DNA of 16,207 nt from the NCBI GenBank assembly GCA_020061125.1, contig JAGUYV010000046.1:1-16207 (forward strand), in the 5' to 3' direction. The notes under the pieces are model-generated. The model saw nothing but the letters and a program-made list of their open reading frames with translations, did not search any database and had not been told where the DNA came from. This DNA comes from a bacterium. Lineage in GTDB: Bacteria; UBP15; UBA6099; DSWB01. The position numbers and the translations under genes are program-made. Position 1 is the stretch's first letter, and every line of letters begins with the position of its first letter. This document shows positions 8,265 through 16,207 of this stretch, one piece after another.

Positions 8265-9281
8265 ATGGCAGTGGGACTGGCTCCTCGCATGGGGCTGGAC
8301 ATGGGAACGAGCAAGACCGTGGTGTGGGCCGGGAAGCGCGTGGCGTACAATGAGCCGACATTGCTGGCGGTGAACCCGCAGCGCAACCGGGCGCTGTACT
8401 GGGGCAAGGCCGCGGCCGAGCGCACGGGCAAGATGAAGCAGGACACGGAGATGCTGCGCCCGGTGCGGCGCGGCGCCATCGCGGATTACGCGGCAACGGT
8501 TTTTTATCTGAAAAAGGCGTTGGCTGCGGCCCAGCGGTTCAGGGTGCTCAAGCCCGTGCTGGTGGCGGGCGTGCCCATTCAGTTGAGCAGCGTGGAGGCG
8601 CGCGCCCTGTGCGACGCCGCACGCGAGGCCGGTGCGGGCGGAATTTTCCTGGTCCCCAGCACCCTGGCCGCGCTTTGGGGCTGCCTCGAAGACCCCGAGG
8701 ATCCTACTGGCTCGCTGGTCGTGGACATGGGCGCGGGCGTCACCGATGTGTCCGTGATCGCATCCAACCAGCTCATCGTGGGTCGAACCATCCCCATCGG
8801 CGGGGACGACATCACTCTTCTGGCCGAGCGGGTCATGGAAGTGTCCTACGGCGTGCGCATGGGGCGCATCGAGGCCGCGGCCGTGAAAATGGATGTGGGC
8901 GTGGGTTATTACCAGGATGAAATGTTCGAAAAACGGCGCAACGACCCGGACCACAAGGGCGGGTTCAACAATGTGCGCATATCCAAGCGGCAGGTAGCCG
9001 AGTTTTTGCTCCAGGGCCTGGAACCGCTGTTTTCCGGCATCATCAACACCCTTGAGGAAACGCCGCCCGAACTGTTCGAGGACATTTTCCGCAAGGGCTT
9101 GATATTGAGCGGCGGATCATCGCTGCTGCCCGGGCTGCGCCGCCGTTTGCAGGACCGCCTGAACCTGAATGTCACGCGTCTGCCCGAGCCGTCGTTGAGC
9201 GTGATTCAGGGCGTGGGGCGGATCATCACGCGTTTCGGCCAGTTCCGCGAGTATTTCGACGAGCAGATGGCCATGGCGTAA
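8265..9281 (+). CDS. MreB-like bacterial actin, divergent
   Basis: This 338-residue protein has the length of MreB. The actin-fold nucleotide motifs are present: phosphate-1 GLDMGTSKT (10-18), phosphate-2 VVDMGAGVTD (152-161) and adenosine LSGGSSLLPGL (281-291). NEPTLLAV at 29-36 matches MreB NEPSVVAI, and GVPIQLSSVEARAL at 102-115 matches its VERRAI region. The loop that reads EEPMAAAIG in MreB is PSTLAALWG here (131-139), so the Glu thought to assist ATP hydrolysis is replaced. Residues 210-235 are unlike MreB. MreB organises cell-wall synthesis as membrane-bound filaments. Here the gene opens an operon with the lipid transporter genes mlaE, mlaF and mlaD, rather than mreC and mreD. It may be a scaffold for that transporter or a shape protein that happens to be linked. 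An AAAGGA-type ribosome site lies about 10 bases upstream. Confidence 0.8.
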   Translation: MAVGLAPRMGLDMGTSKTVVWAGKRVAYNEPTLLAVNPQRNRALYWGKAAAERTGKMKQDTEMLRPVRRGAIADYAATVFYLKKALAAAQRFRVLKPVLVAGVPIQLSSVEARALCDAAREAGAGGIFLVPSTLAALWGCLEDPEDPTGSLVVDMGAGVTDVSVIASNQLIVGRTIPIGGDDITLLAERVMEVSYGVRMGRIEAAAVKMDVGVGYYQDEMFEKRRNDPDHKGGFNNVRISKRQVAEFLLQGLEPLFSGIINTLEETPPELFEDIFRKGLILSGGSSLLPGLRRRLQDRLNLNVTRLPEPSLSVIQGVGRIITRFGQFREYFDEQMAMA

Positions 9282-9323
9282 CCGGCCATGCCCGTGCGCG
9301 GCCGATTGGTTGCGCGGAGATTC

Positions 9324-10115
9324 ATGAAACACATCGCAGCGTTTTTTGAGAGCATCGGCGCGGGGTTCATGTACTTTCTGGAGTACATCGGCCGCGCCGT
9401 GAACATCCTGGCGTCGGCCCTGTATTACATCGGCCGTATGGCCATCGAGTGGCCCATCACCGTTACCCAGATGTCGGTCATGGGCGTGAATTCCATGCCC
9501 ATCGTGTTTCTGGTGGTGTCGTTCACGGGCATGTTTCTGTCGCTGATGCTCACGCAGCAGGCGGTGCGGTTCGGCACCGTGGAGTATGTGGGCGCGGCCA
9601 TTGTGTATGTGATGATTCGTGAACTTGCGCCGGTGCTGTCCGCAGTGGTGATCGCCGGGCGGGTCGGCTCGGCCATCGCCTCGGAAATCGGGTCCATGAA
9701 GGTGAGCGAGCAGATTGACGCGCTGCGTTCGCTGGCCACGAATCCGGTGCAGTACCTGGTGGTGCCGCGCATGGCCGCGCTTGTGATCATGCTGCCGGTG
9801 GTGACGGTGTTCGCAGCCCTGGTCAGCATTCTGATGTCTTATGTGGTGGCCTATCAGGTGGGCGGCCTTGAATGGATGGTGTTCATGAAGAATGTGCCCA
9901 CGATAGTGGATCCGAAAATCGTGATCGGGGCGCTGATCAAGGCCGTGGCGTTCGCGGTGACCATCGCCATCATCGGGTGCGTCGAGGGCATGCATACCGA
10001 GGGTGGGGCCGTGGGCGTGGGCCGCGCAACCATCAATGCCGTGGTTGTGAGCATGGTCCTGATTTTCGGCCTCAATTTCCTGCTCTCCATGATCCTGTTT
10101 CCCATGGGGCCGTGA
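9324..10115 (+). CDS. mlaE: MlaE-type lipid ABC transporter permease
   Basis: This is the inner-membrane permease of an MCE/Mla phospholipid transporter. From the ATG at 9324 (GGAG just upstream, spacing short at about 4) it has 263 residues, the usual MlaE length. An alternative in-frame ATG at 9288 would add 12 basic residues, has no clear ribosome site, and cannot be excluded. The family signature is strong at 100-134, including ELAPVLSAVVIAGRVGSAIA and KVSEQIDAL. Hydrophobic segments lie at about 57-77, 89-110, 151-178, 205-220 and 237-258. It would pair with the ATPase encoded 18 bases downstream and with the MCE protein after that. It follows the MreB-like gene by 42 bases (6 if the upstream ATG is used), so translation of the operon is probably coupled. 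Confidence 0.92.
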   Translation: MKHIAAFFESIGAGFMYFLEYIGRAVNILASALYYIGRMAIEWPITVTQMSVMGVNSMPIVFLVVSFTGMFLSLMLTQQAVRFGTVEYVGAAIVYVMIRELAPVLSAVVIAGRVGSAIASEIGSMKVSEQIDALRSLATNPVQYLVVPRMAALVIMLPVVTVFAALVSILMSYVVAYQVGGLEWMVFMKNVPTIVDPKIVIGALIKAVAFAVTIAIIGCVEGMHTEGGAVGVGRATINAVVVSMVLIFGLNFLLSMILFPMGP

Positions 10116-10133
10116 CGCGGGCCGGCGAAGCCT

Positions 10134-10913
10134 ATGATTGAACTGAAAAAAGTCACTATTGCATTCGGAAGCAATGTGGTGTTGCGAGACATTGATCTGC
10201 GCGTGAACAAGGGTGAGATCGTGACCATTCTCGGGCGCAGCGGATGCGGCAAGAGCACGCTGCTGCGCGCGGCCATGGGCCTGATCCCCATTGCCTCGGG
10301 CGAAATATTCGTGCAGGGCCGCCGCGTGGACGACATCAAAGAGCGCGACATGGACGAAGTGCGCAAGACCATGGGAATGGTGTTCCAGGAAGGCGCGCTG
10401 TTCGACAGCATGACCGTGTTCGAGAATGTGGCTTTCGCGCTGCGGAGGCACACAAAACTCAAGGAAAAGGAAATCCGGGAGATCGTGAACGAGCGCCTCG
10501 AAGCCGTGGACCTTGAAGGCGCGGAGCACAAACGGCCGGACCAGTTGAGCGGGGGCATGCGCCGGCGCGTGGGCATCGCCCGCGCCCTGGCCATGAAGCC
10601 GGACATTCTGCTCTACGACGAGCCGACCACGGGCCTGGACCCCATTCTCACGGCCACGGTCGTGGAACTGATTTTGAAAATGCGGGACCGGTACGGCGCT
10701 ACGAGCATCGTGGTCACGCACGACCTCGAGGCCGCGTCCCGGATCAGCGACCGCGCGGCCATGATCCACGACGGCCGGTTCATCGCCCAGGGCGCGATCG
10801 CCGAACTTGAGGCCAGCGCGGACCCGGATGTTTCGACTTTTTTCACCATAATGGACAGGCGGGCGGCCGCCGGAAACGCAAAGCAGGGGAGGCGTCCCGA
10901 TGCTGACGCATAA
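10134..10913 (+). CDS. mlaF: MlaF-type ABC transporter ATP-binding protein
   Basis: This 259-residue cytoplasmic ATPase powers the MlaE permease. All ABC motifs are intact: Walker A GRSGCGKST (34-42), a Q-loop in MVFQEGALFDS (MlaF-like), the signature LSGGM, Walker B ILLYDEP followed by the D-loop TTGLD, and the switch His in VVTHD. The GALFDSMTVFENVAF segment is characteristic of the MlaF/Mkl subfamily. The C-terminal extension is short and rich in Ala, Arg and Lys. No MlaB (STAS) gene is seen beside it. The gene begins 18 bases after mlaE and overlaps the start of mlaD by 14 bases, which supports one operon and coupled translation. Confidence 0.93.
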   Translation: MIELKKVTIAFGSNVVLRDIDLRVNKGEIVTILGRSGCGKSTLLRAAMGLIPIASGEIFVQGRRVDDIKERDMDEVRKTMGMVFQEGALFDSMTVFENVAFALRRHTKLKEKEIREIVNERLEAVDLEGAEHKRPDQLSGGMRRRVGIARALAMKPDILLYDEPTTGLDPILTATVVELILKMRDRYGATSIVVTHDLEAASRISDRAAMIHDGRFIAQGAIAELEASADPDVSTFFTIMDRRAAAGNAKQGRRPDADA

Positions 10914-12219
10914 TGTGAAAGTGGGCCTGGCCGTGGTTGCGGCCGTAATCGTGATCATCGTGACCATGCGGTTCGTGGGCGGTGAAAAGTTCACTCCGGA
11001 CAACACCTACACTCTCAAGGTCGTGTTCGAGAATGTGCAGGGGCTGTCGCCGGGCGCCAAGGTGTGGTTGAGCGGCGTGGAGGTGGGCAAGGTCGAGGAG
11101 GTCGTGCTGCGCGACGACGGCAGGGCCGTGCTCAATCTGCGCATCGGAACGGGCTACCAGATCCGCCGCGACGCCGAGTTCAACATTAAGGTTGGCTTTC
11201 TGAAGGACACCATTTTGAGCATCACGAATCCCGATGTGCGGCCCGTGAAGCTCGAATATTTCAAGCCGGGGGACACCATCACAAAAACTCGCACACCGTC
11301 CACCCTCGACGACCTCGTGGGCGAGGCTCACAAGGCCCTCAAGCAGGTCAACGACATGCTCGCGTCCGTGAAGCAGATCGTTGGCGACGACACCATGAAA
11401 CACAATGTGCATGAGACCGTGGAAAATGTGCGCATGATCACCGAGCAGATTTACGATTTCGCCACCGTGCTCAAGGAAGTGGGCGTGCAGAATCAGGCCG
11501 AGATTGACGCCATCATCGCCAATGTCAACGCGCTTACCGCCAATTTGATCAAGACCTCGGAAAAAGCGGACATGCTCCTCGCCAATGTCAACGATGTGGC
11601 CGGGGATCCGGAAGTGAAAAGGGATCTCAAGCAGGCCATTGACAACCTGCAGGCCACCATGGCCAACCTCGAGGAAACCACGGATTCGGTGAAAAAACTC
11701 ATCACCGACGATGAGCTGAATCAGGATTTGAAACAGACCATCAAGAGCACGCGGCGCACCATGGAGAACGCGGACACGGCCTTGGCCGGCGTGCGCAAGG
11801 CCGTGGACACCGTGAACAATACCGAAGTCAAACCATCGTTCCAGTTTCGCTACAATGCGCGCGAAGATAAGTACCACGCGGACATGAACCTGCGCATGTT
11901 TCCGCCCGATCCGTCTGTAAGCTATCTCATCGGACTGGATGATCTGGGCGAGAACAGCAACACCAACCTGCAGCTTGGCGTGCGCGGCGCGCTTCCGGGC
12001 GTGTGGTACCGCCTCGGCATCAAGAGCGGCAAGCTGGGCATGGGCGCGGAATACGAAAAAGACGACATTTATATGGAAGGCGATCTCATAGACCCCAACG
12101 ATTTGCAATTCAATCTGCGCGTGGGCAAGCAGCTTCAGCCCAACCGGTATCTGCTGCTGGGATGGGAAGAAGCGTTCAAGCGAGACGGGTTGAGCTTCGG
12201 CTTTCTTCAGAAATACTGA
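10900..12219 (+). CDS. mlaD: MlaD-type MCE protein with long helical region and C-terminal beta domain
   Basis: This 439-residue protein is about twice the length of E. coli MlaD. A strong ribosome site (GGGGAGG) lies upstream, and the start overlaps the end of mlaF. Residues 7-26 are a single transmembrane anchor. Residues about 37-128 are the MCE domain, with FENVQGLSPGAKVWLSGVEV as hallmark. Residues about 135-310 are predicted long helices, probably coiled coil, with repeated NVNALTANL/NVNDVAGD-like and NLQATMANLEET-like segments. Residues about 312-439 switch to alternating, aromatic-rich beta sequence (VWYRLGIKSGKLGMGAEYE, FNLRVGKQL, YLLLGWEE) and end in a C-terminal Tyr, as outer-membrane strands do. 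This build fits a transenvelope bridge that carries phospholipid between membranes without MlaC or MlaA. It is the last gene of the operon. Confidence 0.9.
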   Translation: MLTHNVKVGLAVVAAVIVIIVTMRFVGGEKFTPDNTYTLKVVFENVQGLSPGAKVWLSGVEVGKVEEVVLRDDGRAVLNLRIGTGYQIRRDAEFNIKVGFLKDTILSITNPDVRPVKLEYFKPGDTITKTRTPSTLDDLVGEAHKALKQVNDMLASVKQIVGDDTMKHNVHETVENVRMITEQIYDFATVLKEVGVQNQAEIDAIIANVNALTANLIKTSEKADMLLANVNDVAGDPEVKRDLKQAIDNLQATMANLEETTDSVKKLITDDELNQDLKQTIKSTRRTMENADTALAGVRKAVDTVNNTEVKPSFQFRYNAREDKYHADMNLRMFPPDPSVSYLIGLDDLGENSNTNLQLGVRGALPGVWYRLGIKSGKLGMGAEYEKDDIYMEGDLIDPNDLQFNLRVGKQLQPNRYLLLGWEEAFKRDGLSFGFLQKY

Positions 12220-12283: not shown

Positions 12284-12312
12284 TTGACACCGGCCCGCAG
12301 CCGTTCTATTTT
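12284..12312 (+). promoter_or_regulatory. Sigma-70-type promoter for the HisD/HisB/HAD operon
   Basis: TTGACA at 12284-12289 (6/6), a 17-base spacer and TATTTT at 12307-12312 (4/6). The predicted start, about 12319, falls at the beginning of an alternating GC tract. It lies 57 bases before the next ATG. Confidence 0.65.
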
Positions 12313-12314
12313 GA

Positions 12315-12336
12315 GTATGCGCGCGCACGCGCGCGC
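12315..12336. repeat. 22-bp alternating purine-pyrimidine (mostly GC) tract at the start site
   Basis: Every step from 12315 to 12336 alternates purine and pyrimidine, with the GC part running 12319-12336. It is a classic Z-DNA-prone sequence. As RNA it folds into a GC hairpin (about 6 bp with a 4-base loop) at the very 5' end of the transcript, followed by UUU. Confidence 0.7.
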
Positions 12337-12368
12337 TTTGTGATTCCACCGGTGAGCCAGGTGCGCCC

Positions 12369-12977
12369 ATGAGGTTGCCGCAGGTTTTGAAAACGAGGCG
12401 CGCCGCTGTGCCGCTTCTTGTTCTGCTGTCTGTTGCAGGCGGCTATTTCATTTTTCGCGGGGCGCAGCAGGGAATCCGCGGCTTCGAAAACGGCATCCAG
12501 CGCAAGTCGAGTGAAATCCAGGAGGAGTTCAGGGCCACCATTTCCACTATGGCGGTCGAACACAAGCAGTATTTGGAGTGCGAACAGGTGGCGGACGCCT
12601 GGCGCATGGCGCAGAGCGGGTATCACAGGGATTTTGGCGCTTACGCTGGTGAGCCGGAAGCCATGCGGGGCCGCAACACGCTAAACAAGGATTATGTGGA
12701 CGAAACCCTCGCGGATGCCATGAAAGGCGTGTGCTACATCATCGAAATGAACGCTTCGGACACTGATTATCGCATGATGTTCGAGGTGGACAAGCAGGCC
12801 CTGGTTCAGCAGTACGAGAGGCGGCTGAACCGGGAGAAGGACGCGCGGACCAGGGAGCATCTCAAGCTTCGCATCAACCAGTTGCGCTCCGCGGAGCCGT
12901 GCCGCATTACAGCCACGGATCTGGAAATCGCGGCCAACGGACAGTGCGGGTTCGCGGCGCGGCCGGATGAGGATTGA
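12369..12977 (+). CDS. Membrane-anchored protein of unknown function
   Basis: I do not recognise this 202-residue protein. The N-terminus has a basic stretch (KTRR) and one hydrophobic segment at about 12-30, so it is either anchored with the rest in the periplasm or has an uncleaved signal. Residues about 38-75 and 138-175 are charged and helical. Four cysteines (71, 122, 178, 193) lie in the predicted exported part and could form disulfides. The ribosome site is weak (AGGTG, about 7 bases before the ATG). It is the first gene after the promoter at 12284, and its stop is 23 bases before the chosen start of the HisD homologue, so it is very likely co-transcribed with the His-like genes. That linkage is odd for a membrane protein and may be the best clue to its role. 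Confidence 0.6.
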   Translation: MRLPQVLKTRRAAVPLLVLLSVAGGYFIFRGAQQGIRGFENGIQRKSSEIQEEFRATISTMAVEHKQYLECEQVADAWRMAQSGYHRDFGAYAGEPEAMRGRNTLNKDYVDETLADAMKGVCYIIEMNASDTDYRMMFEVDKQALVQQYERRLNREKDARTREHLKLRINQLRSAEPCRITATDLEIAANGQCGFAARPDED

Positions 12978-13000
12978 AGGGCCGGGAAAGGATTGCCGCC

Positions 13001-14311
13001 ATGGCGGGTATGTTGACAATAAGGGTTCTTGACAGACTGGACCGGGAGGAATTGCGCTCCCTGTTCCACCGTGCGGAGACCGACATCCACGGGCTGGCGG
13101 ATGTTGTGCGGCCCGTTCTGGACGATGTGCGCATGCGCGGCGTGCGCGCTGTTTTGAAATACGCCAGGGAATTCGACGGCGCGGACATGACCAAAGCGCA
13201 ACTGGCCGTGTCGCGCAGGGAGTTCGAAGAAGCCGAGGGCAAGGTCGGCAGGAAAGTGCGCGACGCCATCGCCCGGGCCGTGCGCAATGTGCGCCTGTAC
13301 CATGAGCGGCAGATGCCCGATGCGCTGGTCATGACCGAGGTGGAGCCGGGCGTTTACGCGGGAGAGAAGATCACGCCCATCGCCTCGTGCGGCCTGTATG
13401 TGCCGCGCGGCAAAGGCTCATTTCCTTCGGTGATGGTCATGCTGGGCGTTCCTGCGGTTGTGGCCGGGGTCGAGGACTTGTGCGTGGTGTCCCCGCCGGA
13501 CAGGAACGGCATGGCGGACCCGGCCACGCTGGTGGCCGCGCGCGCGTGCGGCATCAGCCGGGTTTACAAGGTGGGCGGCGTGCAGGCCGTGGCCGCACTG
13601 GCGTACGGAGCCTCGCCCGTCCCGCGCATGGACAAAATCATCGGGCCGGGCAATCCGTATGTATCCGCGGCCAAGCGGTTGCTTTTCGGGGTCGTTGATG
13701 TGGGCGTGCCCGCGGGCCCGAGCGAATCCATTATTCTGGCCGACGAAACCACGGACCCGCGCATCGCGGCGCTGGACCTGCTTATCGAGGCCGAGCACGG
13801 GCCGGATTCCTGCGCCCTGCTTGTGACGGACTGCGAGCCTGTGGCGCGCGAGGTTGTGCGCCGCGCCGAGGCGCTCGTGAAGAAGCTGCCCGAGCCGCGC
13901 CGCTCGTTTTGCATCAGCGGGTTCAAGAAATACGGAGGCGTCGTGCTCACGAGCGGCCGCGCCCAGAGCATCGAGTTCACCAACCGCTTCGCGCCCGAGC
14001 ACCTCGAAATTCTCGTCGCGGAACCGTTCGCGGCCCTGGGGCAGATCAAGCACGCGGGCGAAATTCTCATCGGGCCGCACACGCCCATCACAACGGGGAA
14101 TTTCTGCCTGGGCATAGACGCGATTCTTCCCACAGGCGGATTCGCGCGCACCTTCTCGGGCGTGTCCGTGTACGATTTTCTCAAGCGCGCGTCCGTGGGC
14201 TTCGTCACGGAGCAGGGCCTGGAATCCATCGGCCCCCCGGCGGCCACGCTCGCCGAATACGAGGGGTTTCCTGCGCACGCGCGCGCCGTTCTCGACAGAA
14301 AACTCAAATAG
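13001..14311 (+). CDS. hisD: Histidinol dehydrogenase family protein (HisD-like) with altered metal-site residues
   Basis: This 436-residue protein matches HisD in length. The ATG at 13001 has AAGGA 8 bases upstream and is preferred over an overlapping TTG at 12974. Family landmarks are clear: YVPRGKGSFPS, GPGNPYVSAAKR, VPAGPSES and FTNRFAPEHLE, the last with the catalytic Glu-His pair at 333-334. HisD oxidises L-histidinol to histidine with NAD and a bound Zn. Against E. coli HisD, the Zn ligands Gln259, His262, Asp360 and His419 read Glu263, His266, Asn367 and His426. Active-site His367 reads Ala374 (GIDAILPT for GTNHVLPT). These changes suggest a different substrate or metal, as in other HisD paralogues (for example, dihydroxypropanesulfonate dehydrogenase is a HisD relative). 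The next gene is a HisB homologue, which keeps histidine synthesis possible. The family is certain; the activity is not. Confidence 0.85.
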   Translation: MAGMLTIRVLDRLDREELRSLFHRAETDIHGLADVVRPVLDDVRMRGVRAVLKYAREFDGADMTKAQLAVSRREFEEAEGKVGRKVRDAIARAVRNVRLYHERQMPDALVMTEVEPGVYAGEKITPIASCGLYVPRGKGSFPSVMVMLGVPAVVAGVEDLCVVSPPDRNGMADPATLVAARACGISRVYKVGGVQAVAALAYGASPVPRMDKIIGPGNPYVSAAKRLLFGVVDVGVPAGPSESIILADETTDPRIAALDLLIEAEHGPDSCALLVTDCEPVAREVVRRAEALVKKLPEPRRSFCISGFKKYGGVVLTSGRAQSIEFTNRFAPEHLEILVAEPFAALGQIKHAGEILIGPHTPITTGNFCLGIDAILPTGGFARTFSGVSVYDFLKRASVGFVTEQGLESIGPPAATLAEYEGFPAHARAVLDRKLK

Positions 14312-14382
14312 CCGCGCGCCGCGCAATTTTCATTCTCATATCAGGACATTATCAGCAGTACGCAAGACCCGGAGGTCACGCC

Positions 14383-15021
14383 ATGGCAGCGCCCAAAAAA
14401 CAGGTTGTCACCATCAAGCGCAAAACCGCGGAATCCGCGATTTCGTTCAAGCTGGACACAGGTCCGCGCGACAAGGATTACAAAAAGCACTTGCGCACGC
14501 CGCTCCAGTTTTTCAACCACATGCTCGAAACCATTGCCTGGCGCGCGTGCATGAACCTGTCCGTGGATGTGAAGCTGGACGATTTCAAGCTCACGCATGT
14601 GATTTGCGAGGATGTGGGACTGTGCGCGGGCGAAGCGTTCGCGGAACTCTTCGCGCGCCAGTGCGCGCAGGGCGTGAACGGGCAGGGCGCATCGTACAGT
14701 TGCATAGACGAAGCCGTAGCGCGATGTCAGGTGAGTTTCGAGGGCCGCACCCTGTCCGTGCTGGATCCGCAGCTTCACAACGCGCGCGAAATGGTCGAAG
14801 ATATGCAGAGCGCGGATCTGATCGCTTTCCTCGAAGGTTTTGCCCAGGGCGCCCGCGCCACACTGCACATTGACCTTCTGCGTGGAACCAATCCGCACCA
14901 TGTCTGGGAAGCCGTGTTCCGCGCTCTGGGCGAAGCGCTGCGCGTTGCGTTCGCGCCGTGCCCGTGGCGCGCTGGAACCACGCCCGGCGTCAAGGGCAAT
15001 GTGGAGCTGGACAAGGAATAA
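14383..15021 (+). CDS. hisB: Imidazoleglycerol-phosphate dehydratase family protein (HisB-like), divergent
   Basis: The ATG at 14383 has GGAGG 7 bases upstream; the product is 212 residues, close to monofunctional HisB. HisB dehydrates imidazoleglycerol phosphate using two Mn ions held by two HHxxE motifs. The second motif is intact (PHHVWEA, His172, His173, Glu176), with ATLHIDLLRG before it and GTTPGVKG at the end, as in the family. The first motif reads THVICED (His72, Val73, Glu76), losing one His. FxDHML is FFNHML (Asn45, His46). The His of the usual SHG segment is Arg54. The His of the EHFF-type helix is absent near 147-150. About four conserved positions are therefore changed. Either metal binding is remodelled or this is a paralogue with another substrate. 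It lies 71 bases after the HisD homologue and 36 before the HAD gene, in one apparent operon. Confidence 0.75.
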   Translation: MAAPKKQVVTIKRKTAESAISFKLDTGPRDKDYKKHLRTPLQFFNHMLETIAWRACMNLSVDVKLDDFKLTHVICEDVGLCAGEAFAELFARQCAQGVNGQGASYSCIDEAVARCQVSFEGRTLSVLDPQLHNAREMVEDMQSADLIAFLEGFAQGARATLHIDLLRGTNPHHVWEAVFRALGEALRVAFAPCPWRAGTTPGVKGNVELDKE

Positions 15022-15057
15022 TCCGCAGCGCGCCGTGTAGGCCGCAGGAGTGAATCC

Positions 15058-16207
15058 ATGAATTCTCGCGAGCAGTTCCGCAGCATCGAAACCATCCTGT
15101 TCGACATGGACGGCGTCGTCACGAGCGAAGAGGAATACTGGCTGGCCGCGGAATTGACCGTGCTGGAGTTGCTTTACAGTAAGCAATTCGTGGGCCTTGA
15201 AAACGATGTTTTGCGCACGGTGCTGTTCAAGCCCGGCCGCGCCGTGGCCGTTGACAAGTTCGTGTCCCCGAAATTCATCGGCGCGATTAAAAGCTGCGGC
15301 ATCAACTCCAACTGGGACCTGTGTTTTTTCTCGGCCGCCATATATCTGGTGGAGCTTTTGTTCACGGCGCGTGCGAGCGGTATTCTGGACACCATGGCCG
15401 AGCGCGGATTCACGGAGCGGACGCTTCAGGAACTGGGCGCGGCGCTGCCCAACCGGCGCAAGTACATGGAGCACATCAACCACGCGTCGGCCTTCTTTTT
15501 CCAGTTTTTCAAAAAGCTGAAGCAGGAGACCGCAGCTCCGGAATGTTCCGATCCCACGGCCCGGGGCGCGCTGTTCGAAAAGGGCATGAACCTGTGGCTT
15601 GCGGAGCGCACCGGCATCGAGGCCCCGCTGTTCACGCGAGGCAACAATTTCTGGGAACTGTGCCGCACCCTGTTTCAGGAACGGTTTCTGGGTGACGCGC
15701 TGTTCGAGGAGCAGGAGGGCGTGCCGCGAATTTCGCAGATTCACAAGGACGGGCTTATTGACTTCGAAATGCCCATCATTCCGCTGCGTCGCATCATTGA
15801 CGCTCTGGGCCTTCTGCGCGACGCCGGGCTGACGCTGGGCGTGGCCACTGGCCGCCCGTACCGCGAGATCATGATCCCGCTGGAAAAGTGGGGCTTGCTC
15901 CATTTCTTCGACAAAGACCGCATCGCCACGCACCGTGAAGTCGAGCGCGCGCAGCAGTCCACGCAGGGCGAGTCCCTGGCCAAGCCGCACCCGTTCATTT
16001 ATTTGCGCGCGCTGTTTCCGGAAATGACGGATCGGCAACTTCTGGAAATGCCGCGGCCCATTGCGGGCGCGGACAGGGTGCTGGTGGTGGGGGACAGCGC
16101 CGCGGATGTGCTCGCGGCCAAGGCCATGGGCTGCCCCAGCGCCGTGGTCATGACCGGGGTGAGCGACCTTGAAACCGCGGCACGGCTCAAGGCTCTGGAC
16201 CCGGAAT
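15058..16207 (+). CDS. HAD-superfamily hydrolase with very large cap insert (partial, C-terminus beyond window)
   Basis: The frame is open from an ATG at 15058 (AGGAG 7 bases upstream) to the window edge, giving 383 residues without a stop. HAD motifs are in order: motif I FDMDGVV with nucleophile Asp16 and acid Asp18, motif II ATGRP (Thr264), motif III AKPHP (Lys309) and motif IV GDSAAD (345-350). These are intact, so a phosphatase or phosphotransferase is expected, in the cytoplasm. Between motifs I and II lie about 245 residues, much longer than ordinary C1 caps. The insert is rich in Phe, Trp and Tyr and starts SEEEYWLAAELTVLELL. In E. coli the histidinol-phosphate phosphatase is a HAD domain fused to HisB, so a similar step is tempting here. 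However, that enzyme lacks a big cap and looks different. The substrate is unknown. Confidence 0.8.
   Translation, partial: MNSREQFRSIETILFDMDGVVTSEEEYWLAAELTVLELLYSKQFVGLENDVLRTVLFKPGRAVAVDKFVSPKFIGAIKSCGINSNWDLCFFSAAIYLVELLFTARASGILDTMAERGFTERTLQELGAALPNRRKYMEHINHASAFFFQFFKKLKQETAAPECSDPTARGALFEKGMNLWLAERTGIEAPLFTRGNNFWELCRTLFQERFLGDALFEEQEGVPRISQIHKDGLIDFEMPIIPLRRIIDALGLLRDAGLTLGVATGRPYREIMIPLEKWGLLHFFDKDRIATHREVERAQQSTQGESLAKPHPFIYLRALFPEMTDRQLLEMPRPIAGADRVLVVGDSAADVLAAKAMGCPSAVVMTGVSDLETAARLKALDPE

Follow-up and report, generated by a model that had tools for sequence, protein, structure and literature searches.

Do a histidinol dehydrogenase (HisD) and an imidazoleglycerol-phosphate dehydratase (IGPD; HisB) with substituted active sites, encoded side by side, still serve histidine biosynthesis, or have they moved together to another pathway? 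This question is raised by contig JAGUYV010000046.1 of assembly GCA_020061125.1 (GTDB lineage UBP15; UBA6099; DSWB01), a complete contig of 16,207 bases from a 79%-complete genome, which is referred to below as the window. Its right end carries genes encoding a variant HisD, a variant HisB and a large-capped HAD phosphatase (Table 1). Our analyses indicate that this trio is probably the late part of the bacterium's own histidine biosynthesis, with divergent forms of HisB and HisD: the HisB would act as the dehydratase of step 6, the HAD protein would most likely carry out the dephosphorylation of step 8, and the HisD would convert the terminal alcohol into the acid (steps 9-10), with histidine as the presumed product.

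Histidine genes and the conserved hisD-hisB-HAD unit

The window genome encodes one HisD and one HisB, both within the window, while hisG, hisH, hisA, hisF and hisI are located elsewhere. The same holds for five relatives from its order, which are up to 97% complete (G001-G004 and G006): each has a single HisD and a single HisB. In most genomes of the order HisG, HisA, HisF and HisI are encoded elsewhere, with hisH-A-F-I forming an operon. The variant hisD and hisB are part of hisG-(H)-A-F-I-D-B operons in Peptococcaceae UBA3933, Clostridiaceae BRH_c20a and Hydrogenibacillus schlegelii (L098, L108 and L110), the last a facultative chemolithoautotroph (PMC5928048), and in a peregrinibacterium and a myxococcote (L107 and L114) the variant hisB belongs to hisD-...-H-A-F-I operons. 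A further 23 genomes carry the variant HisB; it is their only HisB in 20 cases, 22 have one HisD, and 22 encode at least two HisA/HisF-family proteins. These observations do not support the initial annotation, which had proposed a possible non-histidine pathway for the locus. As refuting that proposal it had named the rest of a his operon immediately downstream together with the lack of any further hisD or hisB gene; the latter is what was found. It had also suggested looking for the genes together with, or instead of, a full his operon: the trio does recur across genomes, and in relatives the variants are located inside ordinary his operons.

All four open reading frames of the initial annotation sit where it placed them, behind a sigma-70-like site at 12284 (two promoter-like sites were found in the region vs. 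0.5 expected, these being matches to the sigma-70 consensus only). They share the plus strand, with gaps of 23, 71 and 36 bases between the genes for the anchored protein, HisD, HisB and the HAD protein, respectively; hisD starts with the ATG at either 13001 or 13010. In the relatives of the order with a readable locus the same hisD-hisB-HAD trio occurs, with the HAD gene directly 3' of hisB, and it is also present in a genome of a different lineage (G038). Of the four-gene unit originally proposed, these three genes stand, whereas the anchored protein was rejected as a member because no homologue was found near the trio in any relative; it exceeded the cut-off of no family in Pfam or NCBIfam. 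Directly upstream (window positions 8265-12219), an actin/MreB-like gene is followed by apparent MlaE, MlaF and MlaD-type lipid-transport genes, as judged from the translations alone.

Several other arrangements of histidine genes were observed. A Levybacteria genome of 0.6 Mb (L113, 3638-8779) carries a HAD-like gene, HisD and variant HisB beside canonical hisB and hisC on the opposite strand; HisA/HisF were not detectable in it, leaving a partial late histidine pathway. Two loci in the window's order encode a third HisA/HisF-family protein, standing alone without a hisH neighbour (L083, 6726-7490; L085, 3866-4630) and distinct from the hisH2-hisF2 type located beside an amidotransferase-like gene (L084, 6852-9511). 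A short contig labelled Nanoarchaeota (L109; JAHJBD010000085.1; genome G114) encodes a variant HisB and a bacterial-type HisD, and the second his region of this genome contains HisA/HisF frames with stop codons, possibly due to mis-binning or sequencing errors.

Active sites of the variant HisB and HisD

Family searches confirmed the three enzyme types named in the initial annotation. The HisD scored 465 bits against PF00815 (Histidinol_dh) and 442 bits against TIGR00069 (cut-off 243.8), the HisB 119 bits against PF00475 (IGPD; cut-off 27), and the HAD protein 36-48 bits against HAD families of Pfam. In the AlphaFold model of the HisB (pLDDT 91), all structure matches with a significant E-value are IGPDs (TM up to 0.82). 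In a maximum-likelihood tree of 92 HisB sequences (30 variant and 62 canonical), a branch supported at 100/100 separates the variants from the rest. When approximately 85,000 species genomes were scanned with the variant HisB, 28 loci emerged at 42-64% identity, separated by a gap from canonical HisB (at most 36%). The variant HisB and HisD constitute a rare, old class distributed over Bacillota, the window's order and a few other phyla. We found no report of this HisB class in the open-access literature. In Monoglobus pectinilyticus (L304, 11998-12618; WP_320690546.1) such a protein, encoded between hisD and a HAD gene, is annotated as 'hypothetical protein'.

In Arabidopsis IGPD2, the ligands of Mn2 are H73, E77, H145 and H170, while the phosphate is held by Q51, H55, R99 and K177, to which the closed form adds R121, S199 and K201 (PMC4509728); the remaining metal ligands, H47, H74, H169 and E173 (Mn1), were assigned by elimination from the same source. 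In this numbering, the window HisB carries the substitutions H55R, H74V, R99G, K177R and S199G. All 62 canonical proteins have H74, R99, K177 and S199, while in the 30 variants H74 is always replaced by V, L or I, R99 mostly by G and never retained, S199 by G, K177 by R (29/30) and H55 by R (28/30). Among the phosphate residues H55, R99, K177, R121, S199 and K201, only R121 is kept throughout the variants, and K201 is kept in 10 of them. Nine residues (E21, H47, H73, E77, D108, R121, H169, H170 and E173), including the acid-base pair E21 and E173, are retained in all 30 variants, and seven of the eight di-manganese ligands are preserved, H74 being the one replaced. The variant shares with IGPD (EC 4.2.1.19; Arabidopsis structures 4mu0 and 4mu4) the fold, E21/E173, the relay residue D108, the four Mn2 ligands and, in relatives, the gene context; it differs in the above substitutions, in forming a separate clade and in its scores against curated models. 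The catalytic core has therefore been retained, with a rebuilt phosphate pocket and one rebuilt metal site, and dehydratase activity is predicted. The new pocket is formed around other arginines, R54, R122, R180 and R196, the last of which is invariant and close to the C loop.

The window HisD is 35% identical to E. coli HisD (EC 1.1.1.23; 1kae) and shares with it the family, the length and residues H262, E326, H327, E414 and H419, but differs by Q259E, E356I, D360N and H367A (E. coli numbering). The catalytic E326/H327 and the imidazole-binding E414 are retained in 30/30 HisDs. The zinc set Q259, H262, D360 and H419 is not intact and reads E, H, N, H, so that the single first-shell carboxylate has changed position but not disappeared. 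In plant HisD the matching glutamine is hydrogen-bonded to the matching glutamate before substrate arrives and then swings onto the zinc (PMC5585171); in the variant HisD both members of this Q259/E356 pair are altered together. At the 30 variant-HisB loci, residue 259 is E in 26 cases, R in three and A in one, and never Q. In genomes with canonical HisB, Q259 was found in 66/68 HisDs, and the two others (L288 and L230) were left out as probably wrong extractions, because D360 is also missing in the extracted frames. The E259 HisDs, which also carry N360, have A in place of H367 and in most cases I in place of E356, form one clade, while those with R or A at 259 belong to another well-supported clade, shared with G010. 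The changes noted in both active sites by the initial annotation are real and conserved. The sulfopropanediol 3-dehydrogenase HpsN (8v35) resembles the variant as a HisD-family dehydrogenase acting outside histidine synthesis, but an HpsN-type protein (L303; 33% identity) keeps Q259/D360/H367 and is not of the same class; accordingly, E259/N360 was rejected as a marker of diol substrates in general.

HisB and HisD are altered jointly across phyla, and HisD residue 259 has changed in two separate HisD lineages, each with a variant HisB; the close relative G010, with a canonical HisB, has retained Q259. Since the E259 and R/A259 proteins fall into separate clades, the latter together with G010, the association must have arisen at least twice or been switched off once. 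In the textbook route, the transaminase and phosphatase reactions lie between those of HisB and HisD, and neither of these two enzymes touches the other's substrate, which makes their joint change puzzling. The initial annotation had explained it by a shared new substrate. The joint change itself holds across phyla, and a shared changed substrate within the histidine route could still account for it; however, the independent contrasts of HisB type with HisD residue 259 amount to only two pairs (sign test, p = 0.5), so chance or the shared inheritance of neighbouring genes is also statistically possible.

The HAD phosphatase

The HAD protein has every catalytic motif of its superfamily, and the motif residues D16, D18, T264, K309, D346 and D350 are invariant in 16-17 homologues. 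The nearest solved structure is that of Staphylococcus aureus Q8NW41 (PDB 1qyi; sequence E-value 7e-43, fold E-value 7.8e-20, TM 0.73), which shares the large-capped architecture but has no established his context; no report of its function was found in the open-access literature. Known histidinol-phosphate phosphatases are of the HAD (HisB-N), PHP (HisJ) or IMPase (HisN) type, and the window protein, which would fill the same step, is neither a PHP nor an IMPase protein and lies far below the HisB-N-type Histidinol-ppas subfamily model (20 bits; cut-off 84). Its gene is directly 3' of the variant hisB in 19/23 loci examined; L098, L106, L108 and L110 lack it. A HisJ-type phosphatase is present in all four of these HAD-less Bacillota, and none exceeds the cut-off in six HAD carriers, a complementarity that is suggestive, although not clean. 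In the his operon of the myxococcote (L114), a different, small HAD gene is located between hisD and the variant hisB. Our best guess is that the HAD protein is a histidinol-phosphate phosphatase. Assignment of this enzyme was of low confidence in 28% of 148 surveyed organisms (PMC7311316).

Table 1. Features of the window and of related plasmid loci (codon rows give the residue of the window protein and its counterpart in the reference enzyme).
Feature	Position	Strand	Remarks
Sigma-70-like promoter match, TTGACA-17-TATTTT	12284..12312	+	10/12 matches; consensus match only
202-aa protein with N-terminal anchor	12369..12977	+	Outside the conserved unit
Variant HisD, E259/I356/N360/A367 class	13001..14311	+	PF00815, TIGR00069; sole genome copy
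HisD codon GAG (E) at E. coli Q259, which joins the zinc site on substrate binding	13787..13789	+	Alignments; role from PMC5585171
HisD codon AAT (N) at E. coli zinc ligand D360	14099..14101	+	Alignments; role from PMC5585171
Variant HisB, imidazoleglycerol-phosphate dehydratase fold	14383..15021	+	PF00475; AlphaFold model
HisB V73 codon, canonical metal-side H74	14599..14601	+	H in 62/62 canonical, 0/30 variant
HisB G100 codon, canonical phosphate-binding R99	14680..14682	+	R in 62/62 canonical, 0/30 variant
HisB G202 codon, canonical S199 of the phosphate-binding C loop	14986..14988	+	S in 62/62 canonical, 0/30 variant
Large-capped HAD phosphatase, PDB 1qyi homologue	15058..16207	+	3' end lost at contig end
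Plasmid HisD homologues (rhizobia, Pacificitalea, Klebsiella), E259/N360	L298 7947-9275; L299 2713-4041; L300 7992-9320; L301 7947-9275; L302 5941-7284

Alternative explanations and significance

Several findings weigh against the assignment of the trio to histidine biosynthesis. The variant HisB lacks the metal-side histidine and most of the phosphate contacts, all invariant in canonical enzymes, and scores below every curated NCBIfam HisB equivalog cut-off (best result 116 bits vs. 283; the lowest cut-off is 189). The HisD has lost two residues of the zinc sphere. HisJ-type proteins coexist with the HAD protein in many genomes, including those of the window's order, so that the latter could be redundant or have a different role. 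The active-site signature of the variant HisD also occurs in HisDs from apparently catabolic clusters of plasmids: those of Rhizobium, Sinorhizobium, Pacificitalea, Shinella and Klebsiella, approximately 50% identical to the window HisD, nest inside the E259 clade. Their clusters contain (i) an ABC transporter, (ii) a short-chain dehydrogenase/reductase (SDR), (iii) a zinc alcohol dehydrogenase, (iv) a 430-aa protein without a Pfam match, kinase-like in appearance, and in some cases (v) a flavin mononucleotide (FMN)-dependent hydroxy-acid oxidase, a HisC-like transaminase and a GntR/UTRA regulator. Finally, an Actinobacteria bin (Ga0077560; LNFL01000111.1; L112, 6605-14998) carries a variant HisB and HisD within a histidine-utilisation (hut) operon, which encodes HutH, HutF and HutI as well as an SDR and an ABC importer of the SsuA type. 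This bin also holds a canonical HisB and HisD, and the variant enzymes are therefore not always biosynthetic; its operon might represent a route degrading an imidazole alcohol via histidine.

These cousins, together with the two changed active sites, would suit a pathway in which the trio synthesises or breaks down a different compound and histidine is obtained otherwise. We consider this very unlikely, as genomes retaining HisG, HisA, HisF and HisI have no other HisB or HisD, the same variants occur within complete his operons and in an autotroph, and the neighbourhood of the trio in the window's order contains no conserved transporter, regulator or catabolic gene. The substituted residues could also mark decaying or inactive remnants in an auxotroph, but this is the least credible explanation and is disfavoured by the pattern of conservation: the substitutions are common to several phyla, E21, H73, E77, D108, R121 and E173 are universally kept among the variants, reading frames are intact, gene order is conserved, and each gene is present only once in genomes that otherwise encode the pathway.

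A re-ordered late route, with histidine still as its product, is a more serious contender, though still an improbable one. Here a phosphatase would act first, converting imidazoleglycerol phosphate into imidazoleglycerol, which the variant HisB would dehydrate to imidazole acetol; the variant HisD would then oxidise this hydroxyketone, a substrate without the amino group, to imidazolepyruvate, with an aminotransferase acting last. If true, both enzymes would see a new substrate, and their changes would be two sides of a single change of intermediate. This would fit the alteration of all four HisB phosphate contacts H55, R99, K177 and S199 and the loss of K201 in 20/30 variants, the clustering of the HisD changes where the substrate amine meets the zinc (PMC5585171), and the change of HisD residue 259 whenever HisB is variant, in two HisD lineages, with Q259 kept beside the canonical HisB of G010. 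The hut operon of L112, with its importer and no annotated kinase, suggests an unphosphorylated imported imidazole substrate, and the FMN hydroxy-acid oxidase and HisC-like transaminase of the plasmid clusters point the same way. On the other hand, the HisB pocket keeps or gains three or four arginines and may therefore still bind phosphate, HpsN keeps Q259/D360 although it oxidises a diol, so that these changes do not mark C2-oxygen substrates in general, and the two independent contrasts carry little statistical weight. The absence of HisC was considered as a sign of transamination acting last, but this prediction failed in Hydrogenibacillus, the sole genome examined for HisC (approximately 1.95 Mb of 2.6 Mb read), in which a HisC of the usual family, above the equivalog cut-off, is encoded beside tyrA; HisC could, moreover, serve either order. 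A hisC gene was found near 0/6 variant vs. 8/24 canonical his operons, numbers too small to matter. On balance, late histidine biosynthesis in the usual order, performed by divergent enzymes, is the reading we favour.

The late steps of histidine biosynthesis are regarded as essentially unvarying, and the mechanism of IGPD, a target of herbicides, depends on a defined phosphate pocket and on eight metal ligands. The novelty lies in the class described here, with its sharp and old rebuilding of active sites, which public annotation partly misses. The replacement of one metal ligand and most of the phosphate contacts throughout a clade, whose partner HisD always has an altered zinc site, means either that this chemistry is open to rebuilding or that the steps follow a different order. 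The class also explains false 'missing HisB' calls, such as that arising from the Monoglobus annotation, and similar cases in related genomes may be annotation gaps, while the HAD protein is a candidate for the histidinol-phosphate phosphatase, an enzyme that is often missing.

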